Source: Pontibacter sp. G13 (GTDB taxonomy: Bacteria > Bacteroidota > Bacteroidia > J057). Taken from it: a DNA stretch of 64,000 bases. The notes beneath the pieces are model-generated. The model saw only the letters and a list, made by a program, of their open reading frames with translations, ran no database searches and was not told where the DNA came from. The stretch spans positions 5,146,001-5,210,000 of the forward strand of contig NZ_CP134696.1 in the NCBI RefSeq assembly GCF_031851795.1, in the 5' to 3' direction. Position 1 is the stretch's first letter. Every line of letters starts with the position of its first letter. Shown piece after piece: positions 43,612 through 50,416 of the stretch. Both the position numbers and the translations under genes were made by a program.

Positions 43612-46600
43612 TTACCAAATATTGCAGACCAAGGCTCTAAATAGCCGTGTGGATGCTTGTGGGAAAAACCAGAGGATTTCGAGTAGGTCCTTGTCGAGCA
43701 ACCACCGGATTCGTTCGGGAATTTTGTGCGAATCGTCTTGCGCTTGAATGTACCCCTTCCATAATTCGTACAGCTCAATCATAGCCTGTTTCCGGGTTGA
43801 GGATTGGCCCAAGTTCGATTGGAGGGAGGCAGGTACTTGGGCTCGGAATCCTTCTGCTAGGGAGTCTATCCACTGGGCCTTTTCCTCCGAATTGTTGGTT
43901 TGAATCCAGCCATCTTCTTCCTCCCACTGAATCCACCGGACCATCTGAGGCCACCGGAGCGAAATAGTCAGCCACTTGGCTAGGGCAGTGGTCGAAGCCA
44001 TGGGATCGCCCTTGGTTTTGCGAAGTATCTGCAACGCGCTGTAGTACCTGAGCATGTTGGCAAACCGTTTCAAGCTTCTGGGGGAAGGATCGAGGAAGGG
44101 GGCAAATCGCCTGATTTCATCCCTGATCTCTTGTGAATCCTTGTTTTCCTCCAAAGCTACTTCCAATACCATCGCATCGACTTCTTCCATAGAAAAGGAT
44201 TGCTCGGCCGCGGCCCGGACATTTTCCTGTAGATCTTGAGAGGCATGCAAAATCGCTGCTGCCTGTTTTTTGATTCGTTCTTGCTCTGGTTTGGATCTGG
44301 CTTTGATCTTTTGGGTGGGATTCGGGACTTCTTCCGTAGGACCGACCTTGGGCTGAAACATCTGCTTGAGGAAATACGCTTTCTCCTCGTCGTTGAGCGT
44401 CGGAATGAATACAGGAAGCTGGATGAATTTGTCCAAAAAATACCAACCTACCGATCCAAGCCTTAGCTCTCGACTGCTGAGGTTTCCCTGAATCTGGCTG
44501 TAAGCCGCATCGAGAGATGCCGCCACAACCTGTCCATCCATGCCGATGACGAAGTAGCATTTGTGGTTGTACTTGGCATTCATCATGAGGTTAATGGCCT
44601 CAATGACTTCCACCACCTTTTTGGGAGAGCAACGATCCAAATCATCGATGAAGATCACGGCAGGGGCATCCTTGTGGACCAACAGATCAAATACCCGTTC
44701 CAAATCCTCCTCGACATGATGAAAATTGCCCAAGCGCTCCTCATAGTTGGGCTGCGTCAAATACGGCTTGATGTATTCCGTCAAGGAGGCGGATTGGTGT
44801 TTGAGGTACGATTGGATTCCCTTGGCAAAGCTCAAGGCTCCCGTGAGGCCGGGAATGGTCATTCTCCAATCCGCGGCAAGACTATTTTTCGTCAGCATCA
44901 GGAGCATGGCTACCGCTGATACGGCGGAGATAAGTGCCCAAGGAGCCAATTTCAGGATGAGATATTGGAGGAGTTCGCGCCGCATTTTGGGCAGGTCTAG
45001 GCGCTTGTATTGCAAGGCCAGCCAAAACTCCTGCTTGGTCCATGCATTGGGAAGATGATCGACCAGACCCGTGATGATGGCGTGCGCCATTCCGGCGTAG
45101 ATCTGATCTGTGCTATGGTATTTCCACGGGTTAAACCAAATCACTGGATACTCGAGCTGGGTATTTGCATCCAATTCGAAATGGCCTTTTTTCGAGAGCC
45201 AACTGGCAATGGTTGTACCCTTGACGGGGGTTGGTTCGGCTTCTTCTTGAACGATTTCTTTTTCCCGCCTGGCAGCAATTTCATCCTGAATGTACCGCAT
45301 CAAGGTGGTTTTGCCTTGTCCCCACGGCGCTAGAATGCCCACGGTCAATGGAGGGAAGGAAGCCTTGTCTGCGATGATATCAGCGATGGGCTTGGCATAG
45401 TTGCGATACCCCAACCAATCTTTTCTGGCCCACTGGTCGGAATGAAGCTTGGTTTGGGTTTCGAAGAGTTGGTTGGAATCTGGGCTGGCAGACGTATGCC
45501 GAGGTTCGGGTTTGAGGGAATTGAGTCGCATTTGCTCCGCCTGGTCCGACTCACCCAATTGTTCGTAGAGGTCGGCCAATTGCTCATACTGCGTGGGCAG
45601 GGTGGCGATTTGCTCCGCATCGGTGAGAAACTTGCCGATGATGGCGATATTGGATTTGGCCTCTAGGTGCATCTGGGCTTGCCGTGTGAGCATACCGAAT
45701 TGCTCGATAGGACCGGGAGAAGGGCCCAGTTGCTGAATGGCCTCCAGGGATTCTTCCGCCAATGCTGCCAGCGATTCTTGCCCCAATTCATGATAGTTTC
45801 GAATGGCCCGTTTCCAGATGATGGGACGATGTGAATGCCCGAGAGCGTCCTGAATGTCCGCAATGGCTTCATCTAATTTATCCGCCTCCATCCAGAATTC
45901 AGCTCGGTCAATGAGGAGGTTGGCTCGGTCGTCAGGCGCCTGGACCGAGAGGAGCCTGAGGTCGATCTCTTCGATGGGGTCCATTTCCGCTGATTCAGGA
46001 GCGGCCTGCGAATAATCAGTGGATTCGGTTTCTGCGGAAATATTGGGGAAATCCTCGATGTCGAAGGTATCAGAGGGAGCTTTTTGCGTGGCTTGGGAAG
46101 AATGGTCATTACCTCCAACGAGGTTCGAAAACCCTTCTGGAAGTTTGTGGGCTGGTTTTGTAATTCCTGCTTCGCTGCCCTTGGAGATCACTTGCTCCCA
46201 ATAGGCAAACATGTCCAAAAGCGAGGCCTTGATCAAGCGTTGATTGCGTATGTAGTCCTCCCTGGTTAACAGCCCCTCTTGGTAGAATTTTTTGTTGTAA
46301 TCGTTGTCTACCTTAAGTCCGAAAAAATCATTTCCCAATTCACTTTCTCCGGGTAAATAGTCCAGTAATTCAATCAGGGCCTCATCCAGATGCTCAGGAT
46401 CAGCTTCCCGGATCAAACCTGAAAACTTCGGGATGACACTCAAAAAGATCTGGTAGTCTTTATCGGAGTAGTCTGGCGGCACGATTCCGACCGTTTCGGG
46501 ATGCTGAGCATTTGGAAATGAGGAGTAAGTTTGGACATCCGCTTCCGTCCATTTCCCTAGCCAGTCCTTCAATTTACCCCTGACTTGCTCCCGCTGATAG

Positions 46601-46815
46601 CTATAGGCTTTGCTTCCCTTGCCGCGTCTTTTTTTGCGAGATTCCTGAATCGTATCAAACTCTGTGGTAATGGTGTCTAGCTCTACTTGGGCTTTTTCAT
46701 CCAGTTCTAGACGTTGGGTCAGCAATTCCAATGCGCCTTCGATCTGGTCTGAATCGAGCATTTTGCGGAGTTCTGATTGGTAGGAGGCAAGGGGGGAGTT
46801 GGGAGATTCAGCCAT
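43612..46815 (-). CDS. KAP-family P-loop NTPase with N-terminal effector-associated-like domains and TPRs
   Basis: 1067 residues. Residues 11-90 and 135-210 are two similar helical modules (IEGALELLTQRLELDEKAQ; LDEALIELLDYLPG followed by YNKKFYQEGLLTREDYIRNQ). They resemble the EAD11-type effector-associated domains of bacterial conflict systems. A disordered linker (215-280) and TPR-like helices (285-430) follow. The KAP NTPase starts near 465: Walker A in GILAPWGQGKTT (493-504), the KAP block FNPWKY (561-566), a membrane helix (about 617-643) between the Walker motifs as in KAP proteins, and Walker B in VIFIDDLDRCSPKKV (720-734). KAP proteins are thought to organise membrane-bound complexes. 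The EAD assignment is my inference; the NTPase is secure. It heads a three-gene row. Confidence 0.88.
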   Translation of the reverse strand: MAESPNSPLASYQSELRKMLDSDQIEGALELLTQRLELDEKAQVELDTITTEFDTIQESRKKRRGKGSKAYSYQREQVRGKLKDWLGKWTEADVQTYSSFPNAQHPETVGIVPPDYSDKDYQIFLSVIPKFSGLIREADPEHLDEALIELLDYLPGESELGNDFFGLKVDNDYNKKFYQEGLLTREDYIRNQRLIKASLLDMFAYWEQVISKGSEAGITKPAHKLPEGFSNLVGGNDHSSQATQKAPSDTFDIEDFPNISAETESTDYSQAAPESAEMDPIEEIDLRLLSVQAPDDRANLLIDRAEFWMEADKLDEAIADIQDALGHSHRPIIWKRAIRNYHELGQESLAALAEESLEAIQQLGPSPGPIEQFGMLTRQAQMHLEAKSNIAIIGKFLTDAEQIATLPTQYEQLADLYEQLGESDQAEQMRLNSLKPEPRHTSASPDSNQLFETQTKLHSDQWARKDWLGYRNYAKPIADIIADKASFPPLTVGILAPWGQGKTTLMRYIQDEIAARREKEIVQEEAEPTPVKGTTIASWLSKKGHFELDANTQLEYPVIWFNPWKYHSTDQIYAGMAHAIITGLVDHLPNAWTKQEFWLALQYKRLDLPKMRRELLQYLILKLAPWALISAVSAVAMLLMLTKNSLAADWRMTIPGLTGALSFAKGIQSYLKHQSASLTEYIKPYLTQPNYEERLGNFHHVEEDLERVFDLLVHKDAPAVIFIDDLDRCSPKKVVEVIEAINLMMNAKYNHKCYFVIGMDGQVVAASLDAAYSQIQGNLSSRELRLGSVGWYFLDKFIQLPVFIPTLNDEEKAYFLKQMFQPKVGPTEEVPNPTQKIKARSKPEQERIKKQAAAILHASQDLQENVRAAAEQSFSMEEVDAMVLEVALEENKDSQEIRDEIRRFAPFLDPSPRSLKRFANMLRYYSALQILRKTKGDPMASTTALAKWLTISLRWPQMVRWIQWEEEDGWIQTNNSEEKAQWIDSLAEGFRAQVPASLQSNLGQSSTRKQAMIELYELWKGYIQAQDDSHKIPERIRWLLDKDLLEILWFFPQASTRLFRALVCNIW

Positions 46816-46919
46816 GCGAGTCGAGTGGGGAAATTCGAATGATTCCGATGAATGGAATAATAGCGAATAATCCCGTCAAATCGTATAGAAATTTCCAGCT
46901 TTTGGATTTCTCGGCGAAC

Positions 46920-48461
46920 TCAATAAGCTTCCGCGCGCCATCCTTCCAACCCTTTCAGCTCGGTGGAGAAATTGATTCCTACAGCGATCAATTCCTTTCC
47001 GCTTTCCTTGAACCGATCGAGATACCGACGATCGCGAATCTGTTGAAGCGCGGCATCGATGGACTGGTCGAGCTTGAATTCCAGACAATAGACATGGGTA
47101 TCGGTCTGGACAATGGCGTCCGCTCTCCCTCGGCTGGTATTGACTTCGCTTTCGATGAATACCCCTAGATAATAGTACACCAAATGGATGATGGCGTGGT
47201 AGAATTTTTCGGTCTGACTGTGGAGGTGATAGGGGAGCTGGGAGAGCATTTGACCCGTGAGATTCATCGCAGTATCTAGATCTTGTACGTTGAATGCATG
47301 ACTGATTTTCACCACCAATGGAGCAGCCAATGAATGACTCGTTTGGCTAAAAGCACCCATGAGATGCTCGGTAAATGCTTTCTTGACTTCTTGATTAGGG
47401 TACCCTAGCTTGAAAAGCTGAGTCTCGGGGTCTTCGGAAAGGATGGTCAAATATCCCGTTTGAAACATCAAGGAAATTAAATTCATCTGCTCTCCGATCG
47501 CAAAAGATTCGAAGGTGGATTCCCCGACTTCCACCTGATCAATTTCATATAGCTCTTGCCCTTTGAGCGCTCCAATCAAGAAACTGGGCGTTGCGGTGGT
47601 AAACCAGTATCGGGCAAATCGATTCGAAGAAAATAAGGAAAGCGTCCCAAACGGATTGTACACCCGCTCCTTTCCCAGCCACCAATATCCGTTGTACCAC
47701 TCCTGAATCTTGTCCATGCAGGCGTCGAAAGTCAGGGAATTGGCCGCTGCCAATGCGGTAATTCGGTCGGAGAAATAGGTGATGAGCTCTGCTCGGGTAT
47801 ATCCCAGCAAGGTCCCGTAGGCAGGATGCAGCGTGAGGTCTGTCAGATTATTGAGGTCCGAGAAGATGCTGACCTTGGAAAATTTGGATACGCCCGTAAT
47901 GAAGACCAATTCCCAGCTGGCATCGAGATCCTTGACGACCGAGTAGAAGGTCTTCATGGTCCGCTGATTGGCTAGGGCTTGATCGAGATCCTCGCCGAGG
48001 TAGTCGATGATGGGTTTGTCGTATTCATCGATGAGGAGGACAACTCGCCCATATCGCTGGGCGAGGGTGGTGGTCAACTCCCTGAATGTGGTGGACAGCT
48101 CCTGAGTTTGAAGCTCCAAACCGTATGCTTTGGCAATCTCCTCCATTCGGGCTTTGAGCCCCGCTTCCAACCCTGTTTCGCGATAGGCGATACTCGCAAA
48201 AGGAATATGGATCACCGGATTCGTTCGGGACCAATCCCATCGATCCTCGATCCACAAGCCTTCGAAAAGGTGCTGATTTCCCCCGTACAATTCCCTCAGC
48301 GTATTCACGAGCAGAGATTTCCCAAACCTCCGAGGACGAGAGAGAAAGTAATATTTCCCTTCGGTCACCATACGGTGGATGGTCTCTGTCTTGTCGACAT
48401 AGACGTGATTGCCTTCGATCAACGTGGCAAAGTCCTGAATACCGAGTGGGAGTTTCTTCAT
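46920..48461 (-). CDS. AAA-ATPase-like / PD-(D/E)XK nuclease protein (DUF1703 family), copy 1
   Basis: 513 residues. The ATPase part (1-270) opens with LPLGIQDFATLIEGNHVYVD, has the family's P-loop FLSRPRRFGKSLL and Walker B VVLLIDEYDKPI, and continues with ITGVSKFSKVSIFSDLNNL. The C-terminal nuclease-like part (about 410-513) has GRADAIV and CLEFKL, the D and ExK of the PD-(D/E)XK core. Residues about 273-398 form a variable region that differs strongly from copy 2. This family is greatly expanded in Bacteroidota and its biological role is not established. It may act in DNA cleavage linked to mobile elements or defence. Confidence 0.9.
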   Translation of the reverse strand: MKKLPLGIQDFATLIEGNHVYVDKTETIHRMVTEGKYYFLSRPRRFGKSLLVNTLRELYGGNQHLFEGLWIEDRWDWSRTNPVIHIPFASIAYRETGLEAGLKARMEEIAKAYGLELQTQELSTTFRELTTTLAQRYGRVVLLIDEYDKPIIDYLGEDLDQALANQRTMKTFYSVVKDLDASWELVFITGVSKFSKVSIFSDLNNLTDLTLHPAYGTLLGYTRAELITYFSDRITALAAANSLTFDACMDKIQEWYNGYWWLGKERVYNPFGTLSLFSSNRFARYWFTTATPSFLIGALKGQELYEIDQVEVGESTFESFAIGEQMNLISLMFQTGYLTILSEDPETQLFKLGYPNQEVKKAFTEHLMGAFSQTSHSLAAPLVVKISHAFNVQDLDTAMNLTGQMLSQLPYHLHSQTEKFYHAIIHLVYYYLGVFIESEVNTSRGRADAIVQTDTHVYCLEFKLDQSIDAALQQIRDRRYLDRFKESGKELIAVGINFSTELKGLEGWRAEAY

Positions 48462-48542
48462 GGAGAAATATCTAGCAACAAGATAGGGATTTTCCGAGCT
48501 TATCGAGCGGGAGCCATGCGCTCTACCCGGACTTGGATGAAC

Positions 48543-50081
48543 TCAATAAGCTTCCGCGCGCCATCCATCCAATCCTTTCAGCTCGGTGGAGAAATTGATT
48601 CCTACAGCGATCAATTCCTTTCCGCTTTCCTTGAACCGATCGAGATACCGACGATCGCGAATCTGTTGAAGCGCGGCATCGATGGACTGGTCGAGCTTGA
48701 ATTCTAGGCAATAGACATGGGTATCGGTCTGTACAATGGCGTCGGCTCTCCCTCGGCTGGTATTGACTTCGCTTTCGATGAATACCCCTAGATAATAGTA
48801 CACCAGATGGATGACGGCGTGGTAGAATTTTTCGGTCTGACTGTGGAGGTGATAGGGGAGCTGGGAGAGCATTTGACCCGTGAGATTCATGACCTCATCA
48901 AGATCTCCCTGTGTGAATGCATCTTCTAATTGAAAAATCTTGGGCCGTACCCCAGATCTTTGAAATCCCGAAAACCCCGCTACCAAGTATTCTAAAAAAG
49001 ATTGTCGAACCTCTTCATTCGGATACCCCATCAAATATAACCCGCGGTCCGATTGCTCTAAAATCGTCAAATAGCCCGTTTGAAAAAGCAGGGAGGTCAT
49101 GTCAAAGGAGGGCCCTAAATCGAAGCTGTCAAACACGGTTCTGCTTACCCATGTCTTTCCTACATCATATACCACCTGTTCTTTTAACAGCTGAATCAGA
49201 AATGTCGGGGTTGCGGTAGTGAACCAATAATTCGTAAAGACCTGTTGTGCGAGCAACTGCAAGATCCCAAACGGATTGTACACCCGCTCCTTTCCCAGCC
49301 ACCAATATCCGTTGTACCACTCCTGAATCTTGTCCATGCAGGCGTCGAAAGTCAGGGAATTGGCCGCTGCCAATGCCGCAATTCGGTCGGAGAAATAGGT
49401 GATGAGCTCTGCTCGGGTATATCCCAGCAAGGTCCCGTAGGCAGGATGCAGCGTGAGGTCTGTCAGATTATTGAGGTCCGAGAAGATGCTGACCTTGGAA
49501 AATTTGGATACGCCCGTAATGAAGACCAATTCCCAGCTGGCATCGAGATCCTTGACGACTGAGTAGAAGGTCTTCATGGTCCGCTGATTGGCTAGGGCTT
49601 GATCGAGATCCTCGCCGAGGTAGTCAATGATGGGTTTGTCGTATTCATCGATGAGGAGGACAACTCGCCCATATCGCTGGGCGAGGGTGGTAGTCAACTC
49701 CCTGAATGTGGTGGACAGCTCCTGAGTTTGAAGCTCCAAACCGTATGCTTTGGCAATCTCCTCCATTCGGGCTTTGAGCCCCGCTTCCAACCCTGTTTCG
49801 CGGTAGGCGATACTCGCAAAAGGAATATGGATCACCGGATTCGTTCGGGACCAATCCCATCGATCCTCGATCCACAAGCCTTCGAAAAGGTGCTGATTTC
49901 CCCCGTACAATTCCCTCAGCGTATTCACGAGCAGAGATTTCCCAAACCTCCGAGGACGAGAGAGAAAGTAATATTTCCCTTCGGTCACCATACGGTGGAT
50001 GGTCTCCGTCTTGTCGACATAGACGTGATTGCCTTCGATCAACGTGGCAAAGTCCTGAATACCGAGTGGGAGTTTCTTCAT
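48543..50081 (-). CDS. AAA-ATPase-like / PD-(D/E)XK nuclease protein (DUF1703 family), copy 2
   Basis: 512 residues from the ATG at 50081, which matches the start of copy 1; the open frame extends upstream but only into the preceding gene's region. ATPase and nuclease motifs are the same as in copy 1 (RPRRFGKSLL, LLIDEYDKPI, GRADAIV, CLEFKL), with almost no amino-acid change outside the middle. The middle region (about residues 273-397) reads LAQQVFTNYWFTTATPTFL and VYDVGKTWVSRTVFDSFDLG and is only distantly similar to copy 1. It lies 38 bp downstream of the small 98-aa gene, probably one transcript. Confidence 0.9.
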   Translation of the reverse strand: MKKLPLGIQDFATLIEGNHVYVDKTETIHRMVTEGKYYFLSRPRRFGKSLLVNTLRELYGGNQHLFEGLWIEDRWDWSRTNPVIHIPFASIAYRETGLEAGLKARMEEIAKAYGLELQTQELSTTFRELTTTLAQRYGRVVLLIDEYDKPIIDYLGEDLDQALANQRTMKTFYSVVKDLDASWELVFITGVSKFSKVSIFSDLNNLTDLTLHPAYGTLLGYTRAELITYFSDRIAALAAANSLTFDACMDKIQEWYNGYWWLGKERVYNPFGILQLLAQQVFTNYWFTTATPTFLIQLLKEQVVYDVGKTWVSRTVFDSFDLGPSFDMTSLLFQTGYLTILEQSDRGLYLMGYPNEEVRQSFLEYLVAGFSGFQRSGVRPKIFQLEDAFTQGDLDEVMNLTGQMLSQLPYHLHSQTEKFYHAVIHLVYYYLGVFIESEVNTSRGRADAIVQTDTHVYCLEFKLDQSIDAALQQIRDRRYLDRFKESGKELIAVGINFSTELKGLDGWRAEAY

Positions 50082-50119
50082 GGAGAAATATCTAGCAACA
50101 AGATAGGGATTTTCCGAGC

Positions 50120-50416
50120 TTATCGAGCGGGAGCCATGCGCTCTACCCGGACTTGGATGCGGTCTGGAGTCCATTGATTGAGTTCCTCCTCCAAGAATAC
50201 CAGCGCCAAAGGATCTGTCGCAGGATTGGGGAGGTGAGCAAGAAACTCCACTTCCATCGGGAGGGACCACTTTTCCAATTCAGGCGAAAGTCCCTGCTTG
50301 AGGATTTCCAAGGTTTGTTGAACTTCTTCCTCGGAGATCATTTCCAATTTGAGGGAGTAGCGGATCTGGTGGGGATTCGTGCTGGGCAAGGGAGATTGGG
50401 GCGTCCAAAAGACCAT
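50120..50416 (-). CDS. small acidic hypothetical protein upstream of the DUF1703 pair
   Basis: 98 residues, no signal peptide or membrane segment. It contains IRYSLKLEMISEEEVQQTLE and FLEEELNQWTPDRIQVRVE and looks like a small alpha/beta protein. I do not recognise a family. An internal ATG at 50341 is an alternative start. Support comes from composition, the 38-bp distance to copy 2, and the presence of its 3' end as a remnant in the tandem duplication. It is plausibly co-transcribed with copies 2 and 1. Confidence 0.55.
   Translation of the reverse strand: MVFWTPQSPLPSTNPHQIRYSLKLEMISEEEVQQTLEILKQGLSPELEKWSLPMEVEFLAHLPNPATDPLALVFLEEELNQWTPDRIQVRVERMAPAR

Follow-up and report, generated by a model that had tools for sequence, protein, structure and literature searches.

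Exchange of internal segments at recurring places in predicted DUF1703 ATPase-nuclease genes, and a tandem pair of such genes in Pontibacter sp. G13

Results

The stretch analyzed here (the window) comprises 64,000 nucleotides of the Pontibacter sp. G13 genome and contains two adjacent genes, copies A and B, with the following features:

46920–48461, minus strand: copy A, predicted DUF1703 ATPase-nuclease, 513 aa; PF09820 at residues 5–200, PF08011 at residues 417–501
48543–50081, minus strand: copy B, predicted DUF1703 ATPase-nuclease, 512 aa; PF09820 at residues 5–200, PF08011 at residues 416–499
46917–48539, no strand: tandem unit 1, copy A and the 78 bp ahead of its start
48540–50159, no strand: tandem unit 2, copy B and the 78 bp ahead of its start
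47268–47644, minus strand: cassette of copy A, codons 273–398, diverged
48891–49264, minus strand: cassette of copy B, diverged
46917–47267, minus strand: 3'-side flank of A (nuclease part), pairing with 48540–48890 of B, 8 differences in 351
47645–48539, minus strand: 5'-side flank of A, covering the ATPase part plus the 78 bp ahead of the start, pairing with 49265–50159 of B, 7 differences in 895
48462–48539, no strand: 78 bp ahead of the A start, identical to 50082–50159; consists of spacer and a copied 3' end of the upstream ORF
50120–50416, minus strand: upstream 98-aa ORF; the gene duplication took in its 3' end; no Pfam match

For copy B, the ATG homologous to that of copy A was taken as the start, the ORF listing having a longer GTG frame to 50270. 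Both proteins matched AAA-ATPase_like (PF09820; 195 bits in each, cut-off 26.1) and PDDEXK_9 (PF08011; 57.5 and 57.4 bits in the two copies, cut-off 25.5), in agreement with the DUF1703 assignment made in the earlier note on this DNA. The Walker A variant RPRRFGKS (residues 42–49) and the Walker B sequence DEYD (residues 145–148) were present in A and B, the motif names being those of PMC1913061. The putative nuclease residues of A in the alignment were D448, E461, K463, and Q474, a motif assignment that we made after the same paper. From these sequence features, A and B are DUF1703 proteins with predicted ATPase and nuclease activities.

The repeated unit was approximately 1.62 kb (unit spacing, 1620–1623). 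The 78 bp before the two start codons, which the earlier note had not described as part of the repeat, were identical at 78 of 78 positions and overlapped the 98-aa ORF upstream at its 3' end. Because the repeat takes in these 78 bp and extends into that ORF, the A/B pair is a true tandem duplication. There were no inverted repeats of 20 or more bases around the pair, and therefore no invertible switch of that kind, and neither tRNA nor tmRNA was found in the 64-kb window. Within its own genome the pair matched nothing but itself at the DNA level; at the protein level, the sole other match was a 58-codon open piece of a C-terminus (C1:1901060).

In Pfam scans of A and B, there was no match up to E = 1 to sensor repeats (TPR, LRR, WD40) or to a YhgA-like/Rpn domain, and a PDB sequence search likewise gave no match up to E = 1. 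The best PADLOC-DB 2.0.0 match of A and B was PDC-S41 (E 0.0012, nuclease part only). No defence family was found among the ten other neighbours scanned, and Pfam scans of 14 window proteins showed no HsdM, HsdR, HsdS, or methylase and no reverse transcriptase of a diversity-generating retroelement. Viral contigs held no relative when copy A alone was the query and eight loci when the alignment was the query.

The flanks of A and B differed at 15 of 1246 positions (7/895 on the 5' side and 8/351 on the 3' side), whereas in the cassette (377 bp in A, 374 bp in B) 187 of 378 alignment columns were identical (Fisher test on the difference counts, 9e-121). These counts agree with the description in the earlier note of flanks of about 900 and 350 bp with some fifteen differences around a strongly diverged middle of about 375 bp. 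The borders were sharp, as had also been described, and the left one lay at 47267/48890 as given there; on the right, unbroken identity began at 47645/49265, so that the edge given earlier was off by two bases. Synonymous sites differed by 2–8% in the flanks (pS 0.02–0.08) and by 83% in the cassette (0.83), which is saturated. Because of this difference, neither drift nor selection alone can account for the pattern, and the synonymous comparison that had been proposed as a check thus upheld the view that plain duplication and drift are insufficient. The GC3 of both cassettes was 0.155–0.175 lower than that of the flanks, a difference exceeding that in all 165 other family members.

To place the pair within its family, we used a set of 167 full-length DUF1703 (AAA-ATPase_like and PDDEXK_9) genes. 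The genomes searched were 100 relatives, 13 of the family, 395 of the class, and, from two genera, 38 and 40; from the matches listed for the two genera, copies were chosen with a preference for tandem copies and for few-contig and copy-rich genomes. Among 220 matched ORFs, 165 were kept and 55 dropped (19 as short, the rest mostly as the same gene in two loci or with an identical middle). With fragments counted, the richest genome of the two genera had at least 39 DUF1703 matches. A pair was called close if nucleotide identity reached 90% or more in an 80-codon window, and the 167 genes gave 76 such pairs.

Mosaic structure was found in 63 of the 76 close pairs: 60 of 64 within genomes and 3 of 12 between genomes. 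The close within-genome pairs came from 19 genomes, each of which had at least one that was mosaic. Two copy-rich genomes (G415 and G416) supplied 34 of the 64 within-genome pairs; when they were removed, 28 of 30 were mosaic. In 62 of the 63 mosaic pairs, each far segment (26 or more codons) exceeded each close one in pS (medians, 0.79 and 0.32). The same kind of mosaic as in A and B thus occurs in the other genomes sampled; the earlier note had proposed checking DUF1703 paralogues for shared flanks with other middles. In the control family, DUF4143, for which 40 stretches were fetched for 60 matches and only pairs with at least 55% amino acid identity were segmented, none of three close pairs was mosaic, one of the three being 100% identical. 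A Calditerrivibrio plasmid (five CDS by annotation in the first 50,000 of 58,717 bases) held one close DUF1703 pair outside the 76 (11137, 37428), which was 91–100% identical per 20-codon bin and had no swap.

An assembly artefact, in which a collapsed or chimeric repeat would have produced the middle, had been named as a possible refutation, and near-identical tandem repeats do misassemble easily. However, the genome consists of 3 contigs, the pair lies within one of 7,538,910 bases, and both cassettes are open with the family motifs present; moreover, mosaics also made up 13 of the 15 close within-genome pairs from genomes with 20 contigs or fewer. We consider an artefact extremely improbable.

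The borders of diverged segments accumulated at the same places, and the segments themselves recurred at three positions: V1 (approximately residues 90–135), the helices between the Walker motifs; V2 (approximately residues 205–285), the lid; and V3 (approximately residues 296–400 or further), the winged-helix-like part and linker. The A/B cassette corresponds to V3 and the end of V2. Its left border, residue 273, lies at the V2 end, and no other far segment of 26 or more codons starts in residues 272–279. By entropy per block, V1, V2, and V3 were the least conserved stretches of the family. For 68 within-genome pairs with backbone identity of at least 0.85, V1 identity was two-peaked, with 47 pairs below 0.65, none at 0.65–0.75, and 21 at 0.75 or above; seven of the 68 shared all three cassettes. 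As judged from these gene comparisons, segment exchange at recurring places is a repeated feature of DUF1703 genes in the genomes sampled, not a local oddity.

Strict four-gamete quartets were found in a single genome, G415, a 190-contig draft, with three for V1×V2 and one for V2×V3; the strict test found none for V1×V3, and V1×V3 four gametes obtained by clustering alleles at 0.82 were rejected. The cassettes thus assort independently in this draft genome. The dN/dS of shared cassettes was 0.065–0.147, at most about twice that of the backbone (0.060–0.070). Shared cassettes are therefore under purifying selection, and their diversity comes from wholesale exchange.

These results bear on the possibility that the middle is hypervariable, changing by quick point mutation under positive selection between conserved flanks. 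The low conservation of V1–V3 in the family would fit such a process, but saturated synonymous sites in the cassette next to flanks at 2–8%, the low dN/dS of shared cassettes, the lack of any pair at 0.65–0.75 in V1, and the assortment in G415 contradict it, and we consider it highly improbable.

Discussion

The A/B middle segment was very probably exchanged by recombination. Exchange of a cassette had been proposed in the earlier note and is supported by the saturated pS, the sharp borders, the mosaics of other genomes, and the assortment, although the other paralogue proposed there as its source was not found in the genome. A single DUF1703 ATPase-nuclease gene was duplicated in tandem, and we suggest that one copy then received, in place of its codons 273–398, the corresponding stretch of a diverged homologue. 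The route would be homologous recombination or gene conversion, with direction and donor inferred. Duplication followed by cassette replacement in a recurring slot plan is the best explanation overall, and we assign it a probability of roughly 0.7.

As to a donor of the B cassette, no match outside the pair exceeded 49% over the 150-aa query in 395 genomes of the class, and over the cassette alone the best was 44%. The recipient is more likely to be copy B. The nearest flank relative, L049, matched the A cassette at 28 and the B cassette at 12 of 72 sites at which the two differ (p = 0.017, uncorrected for six tests; it was the one of six relatives tried that favours A). The cassette tree was discarded as a means of deciding which copy changed: A and B as sisters were not rejected (AU p = 0.535), and the grouping of A with L049 had a support of only 77. 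Because the GC3 of both cassettes is unusually low compared with the flanks, the cassette of A may be foreign too.

The other proposal of the earlier note, homogenised flanks around a diversifying middle, is not supported as hypermutation or positive selection, given the dN/dS of shared cassettes. A variant of it supposes an old tandem pair whose cassettes diverged by descent long ago and in which recent A–B conversion overwrote both flanks and spared the middle. The unrejected sister grouping (AU p = 0.535) and the low GC3 common to both cassettes are in keeping with an old pair, and the identical 78 bp upstream suit conversion as well as a fresh duplication. On the other hand, conversion would have had to occur on both sides and halt sharply around the middle, and L049 sides with the A cassette. 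In the sister genomes G451 and G454, paralogue backbones (0.91–0.97) were somewhat less alike than orthologues (0.97–0.99), which gives no sign that the paralogues were homogenised after the two genomes separated. We regard an old pair as rather unlikely, and import into one copy as the probable origin of the difference.

Recombination among DUF1703 paralogues is already in print. In Cardinium cCpun, Siozios et al. (2019; PMC6387759) described an expansion of the same two-domain genes with many paralogues, a reticulate network, and intragenic recombination detected by RDP4; the role of DUF1703 is called unknown there. Compared with the available text of that paper, the recurring cassette positions, the assortment test, and the selection contrast are reported only here. 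In open-licence literature, we found no other report of recombination within the family and none of a recurring-slot plan. Knizewski et al. (2007; PMC1913061) described the DUF1703 family with the Walker A variant and DEYD seen in A and B; variation between paralogues is not treated in the accessible part of that paper. Like DUF1703 proteins, Rpn proteins (PMC10327210, from the text available) are PD-(D/E)XK nucleases in which one portion varies strongly, and they occur in multiple copies and are transferred horizontally; their activity against phages has been demonstrated. However, the variation of Rpn lies in the C-terminal domain, which is additionally produced on its own as an antitoxin, and Rpn has no AAA+ module; A and B have no Rpn/YhgA-like Pfam match.

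The predicted models of A and B were compared with known structures; the labels STAND, lid, and winged helix are our assignment, in part read from secondary structure. The Z scores were 15.4–16.2 with 2qen and 2fna, mostly 13–14 with plant NLRs and CED-4, 11.2 with EfAvs5, and 11.5 with Avs3, at 8–15% sequence identity of the aligned structures. The top Foldseek matches by E-value were Orc1/Cdc6 and Vps4, not STAND proteins. The models predict that the A/B cassette is a winged-helix-like part and helical linker, with an NLR/STAND-like ATPase core on one side and the nuclease on the other. At the fold level, the predicted ATPase, lid, and winged-helix-like parts are thus putative counterparts of those of STAND/NLR proteins, including Avs, but A and B have no Pfam sensor repeats and their nuclease is C-terminal. 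The specificity subunit HsdS of type I restriction systems also has exchangeable segments set between conserved parts; in A and B, by contrast, it is an ATPase-nuclease that contains the exchangeable part, and the 14 window proteins scanned included neither a methylase nor an HsdR-like protein.

In the genomes sampled, the three replaceable stretches V1–V3 are set in a backbone whose P-loop strand, Walker B strand, and nuclease are conserved. Most likely, a STAND/NLR-like ATP switch would keep the nuclease off, and the cassettes would provide the surface for sensing a trigger or selecting a partner, so that their exchange would give new specificity with the ATPase and nuclease chemistry unchanged. 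The chances that the cassette is a recognition surface, which may set target or partner specificity as the earlier note suggested, appear about even. Defence, whether from phages or from mobile DNA of other kinds, is the likeliest setting, and its chances are likewise about even. As a tentative reading, DUF1703 would be a combinatorial receptor repertoire, in which NLR-like ATPase-nucleases have three independently replaceable recognition slots on a constant chassis: a genome with a dozen copies would have a dozen combinations, new ones would arise by paralogue recombination, and in the A/B pair duplication and one cassette change would recently have given rise to a second receptor.

The ATPase, lid, and winged-helix-like parts of AAA+ and STAND proteins pack against neighbours. 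As the cassettes fall in these parts, they might, instead of reading an outside trigger, insulate paralogues, each copy assembling only with itself or its own partner. The concentration of mosaics between paralogues of one genome (60/64), with fewer between genomes (3/12), would also be expected from insulation, but close copies within a genome can share all three cassettes (7/68 pairs), and we consider it a doubtful explanation.

With the exchanged segments and their borders located, it is clear which parts to swap and assay in experiments. Should these segments prove to be recognition surfaces, DUF1703 would correspond, in bacteria, to immune receptors that are shuffled.

Cassette exchange in the tandem DUF1703 pair

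The features of the two adjacent DUF1703 genes (AAA-ATPase_like and PDDEXK_9), copies A and B, were as follows.

46920–48461, minus strand: copy A, 513 aa, PF09820 and PF08011 above cut-off
48543–50081, minus strand: copy B, 512 aa, PF09820 and PF08011 above cut-off
46917–48539: tandem unit with A
48540–50159: tandem unit with B
50120–50416, minus strand: upstream 98-aa ORF, 3' end duplicated along with the gene

The repeat included the 78 bp ahead of the start codon, identical in A and B (78/78) and extending into the 3' end of the 98-aa ORF, and at the duplication junction the joined ends had one base, a G, in common. The pair is therefore a tandem duplication. The 98-aa ORF had no Pfam match, and the 20 related genomes searched for it gave none either. 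The units showed 7 differences over a common 895 bp and 8 over a common 351 bp, confirming the some fifteen flank differences counted in the earlier note, and the middles between these near-identical flanks were strongly diverged, as it had stated (377 and 374 bp; 187 of 378 aligned columns identical).

When divergence was counted codon-wise, synonymous difference (pS) was 0.02–0.08 in the five flank segments versus a saturated 0.83 in the middle segment, or cassette (codons 273–398), where nonsynonymous difference was 0.44. Because of this contrast, which the earlier note had suggested checking, neither drift nor selection could have produced the pattern, and its argument that duplication plus drift cannot do so held. 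Protein identity between A and B was 1.00 in the ATPase part, 0.42 in the cassette, and 0.98 in the nuclease part, and the residues expected to be catalytic (42–49, 145–148, D448, E461, K463, and Q474; motif meanings after PMC1913061) were located in the common flanks. The A/B difference is a real recombinational cassette exchange within a tandem duplication.

AlphaFold2 models of A (pLDDT 82.9, pTM 0.77) and B (pLDDT 85.0, pTM 0.83) had nearly the same secondary structure across the cassette: helices, a helix with a beta-hairpin at about 328–353, which was read as winged-helix-like, and long helices toward the nuclease. Foldseek's own ranking placed Orc1/Cdc6 and Vps4 first (2v1u, E 1.3e-5), with just four matches at E up to 0.001. 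VIA-align, which re-aligns Foldseek candidates, gave the archaeal ATPases 2qen and 2fna as top matches (Z 15.4–16.2), followed by plant NLRs and CED-4, mostly at Z 13–14, and aligned part 375–510 to CinB, a Wolbachia nuclease (7et0; Z 10.3). The predicted AAA+ core is thus firm, whereas the STAND/NLR likeness, which comes from the second-look alignment, is a reading of the models.

Origin of the cassettes

The tree built on the flanks grouped A and B with L049, a locus on a Cytophagales MAG contig, with support of 99. Identity to L049 in the three parts was 0.56, 0.55, and 0.57 for A and 0.56, 0.42, and 0.56 for B; among 72 sites differing between A and B, L049 agreed with A at 28 and with B at 12 (p = 0.017, uncorrected), and five other relatives were neutral. 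That L049 is nearer to A in the cassette favours B as the probable recombinant copy; however, the cassette tree did not reject A and B as sisters (AU p 0.535), which counts against this assignment. GC at third codon positions (GC3) was 0.476 and 0.488 in the cassettes versus 0.651 and 0.643 in the respective flanks (deficit 0.155–0.175; within-gene Fisher p = 0.0007 and 0.002). Since none of the 165 other members (mean +0.012, sd 0.060) had so large a gap, both cassettes (47268–47644 and 48891–49264) may be of outside origin. A donor was sought in 395 genomes and not found, the best match being 49%, and the search of the genome itself yielded nothing beyond a C-terminal fragment of a third DUF1703 copy at C1:1901060. 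This piece (L003 1501–1650; G000:C1:1901060–1901203) has a 58-codon frame, and as a remnant it suggests that the genome may once have had more DUF1703 copies.

Mosaic pairs across the DUF1703 family

We collected 165 further full-length copies from the family of this organism, two copy-rich genera, and a handful of additional genomes and named records, and segmented all gene pairs with a two-state model. A pair was called close if an 80-codon window reached ≥90% nucleotide identity, and mosaic if it had 100 or more close codons together with a far segment of 26 codons or longer. Mosaics made up 63 of 76 close pairs, 60/64 within genomes versus 3/12 between genomes, fractions that are not rates, the sample being non-random (selection leaned toward tandem copies and genomes with many copies, and copies were chosen from listed matches). 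Among the 167 genes, A and B included, mosaics like the A/B one thus recurred in other sampled genomes. All 19 genomes with a close within-genome pair had a mosaic one. Two genomes, G415 and G416, supplied 34 of the 64 within-genome pairs, and without both, 28/30 were mosaic; in genomes with 20 contigs or fewer, 13/15 were. In 62 of the 63 mosaic pairs, every far segment of at least 26 codons exceeded every close segment of that length in pS (medians 0.79 and 0.32). The control family DUF4143 gave three close pairs and no mosaic in seven of the same genomes, which is a hint only. One further close pair, outside the 76, on Calditerrivibrio plasmid pCALNI01 (L235; 11137–12675 and 37428–38966), was without a cassette swap, being 95–100% identical to about residue 400 and 91–96% past there. 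Another contig (L107; G335:C226:1–4528) consisted almost wholly of three tandem copies, diverged mostly at V1 and similar in V3.

Far segments recurred in three slots:

V1: left border mostly 88–95, right 120–143; 16 genomes or genome pairs
V2: left 200–215, right about 250–300; 14 genomes or genome pairs
V3: left 296–303 or 336–367, right mostly 392–445; 11 genomes or genome pairs

Among 68 within-genome pairs with backbone identity of at least 0.85, V1 identity was two-peaked (47 below 0.65, none at 0.65–0.75, 21 at ≥0.75), and the V2 and V3 distributions were broader. A short variable piece at about residues 10–37 occurred in some genomes; in G443 it set apart otherwise near-identical copies (L168, L170, L171, and L172; about 12–37) and is perhaps a fourth exchange site.

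Assortment and selection

Strict four-gamete quartets (same, ≥0.80; different, ≤0.70) were found in G415: three V1×V2, two of them with three members in common, and one V2×V3. Among L211, L209, L215, and L216, two V1 types and two V2 types occurred in all four pairings. No strict V1×V3 quartet was found in G415, and no strict quartet in other genomes with at least four copies. G415 is a 190-contig draft; repeat collapse is an unlikely source of its quartets, since the backbone blocks in those shown differed by 7–22%. In regions with pS up to 0.45, dN/dS of common cassettes, over pairs that are not independent, was 0.065 (V1), 0.087 (V2), and 0.106 (V3) between genomes (backbone 0.060), and 0.147, 0.109, and 0.083 within genomes (backbone 0.070). 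Inherited cassettes are thus preserved, and the differences between cassettes come from replacement. The alternative raised in the earlier note, homogenised flanks around a diversifying middle, was not borne out as hypermutation or positive selection, which the low dN/dS of common cassettes (0.065–0.147) and the G415 quartets contradict; flank conversion that left an old cassette untouched is a less probable variant of it. Exchange by recombination, its other proposal, agreed with the saturated cassette pS, the family mosaics, and these quartets.

Possible function

The cassettes would set what triggers, or what joins, the ATPase switch; that they instead insulate paralogues from each other is a serious rival. 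The multi-copy expansion, plasmid presence (62 of 72,556 plasmid records had DUF1703 genes), and the following neighbor hint at a defence setting.

43612–46815, minus strand: KAP NTPase, 1067 aa, carrying the effector-associated domain EAD11, just downstream of A

In PADLOC, this NTPase matched QatA at E 1e-17 and also PDC-S20, and strong relatives occurred in 2 of the 20 related genomes searched. Against defence, the PADLOC matches of A and B were weak and the ten other neighbors scanned contained no defence families. Near full-length relatives with 32–38% identity were present on IMG/VR contigs (L227–L231). PF09820 is listed under RADAR, PARIS1, and Old-tin in a review table (PMC10952713), and the Rpn nucleases, which have a variable domain, are an antiphage analogue (PMC10327210).

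The DUF1703 domain plan (Knizewski et al. 2007, PMC1913061) and the expansion and intragenic recombination of the family in Cardinium (Siozios et al. 2019, PMC6387759) have been described, so the family and recombination within it are already known. The open-licence literature searched yielded no description of recurring, exchangeable cassettes in DUF1703 genes. What is new is the recurring slots, their assortment in one genome, and the selection contrast, and the pair of A and B looks like one case of a general slot-wise shuffling in DUF1703 ATPase-nucleases.
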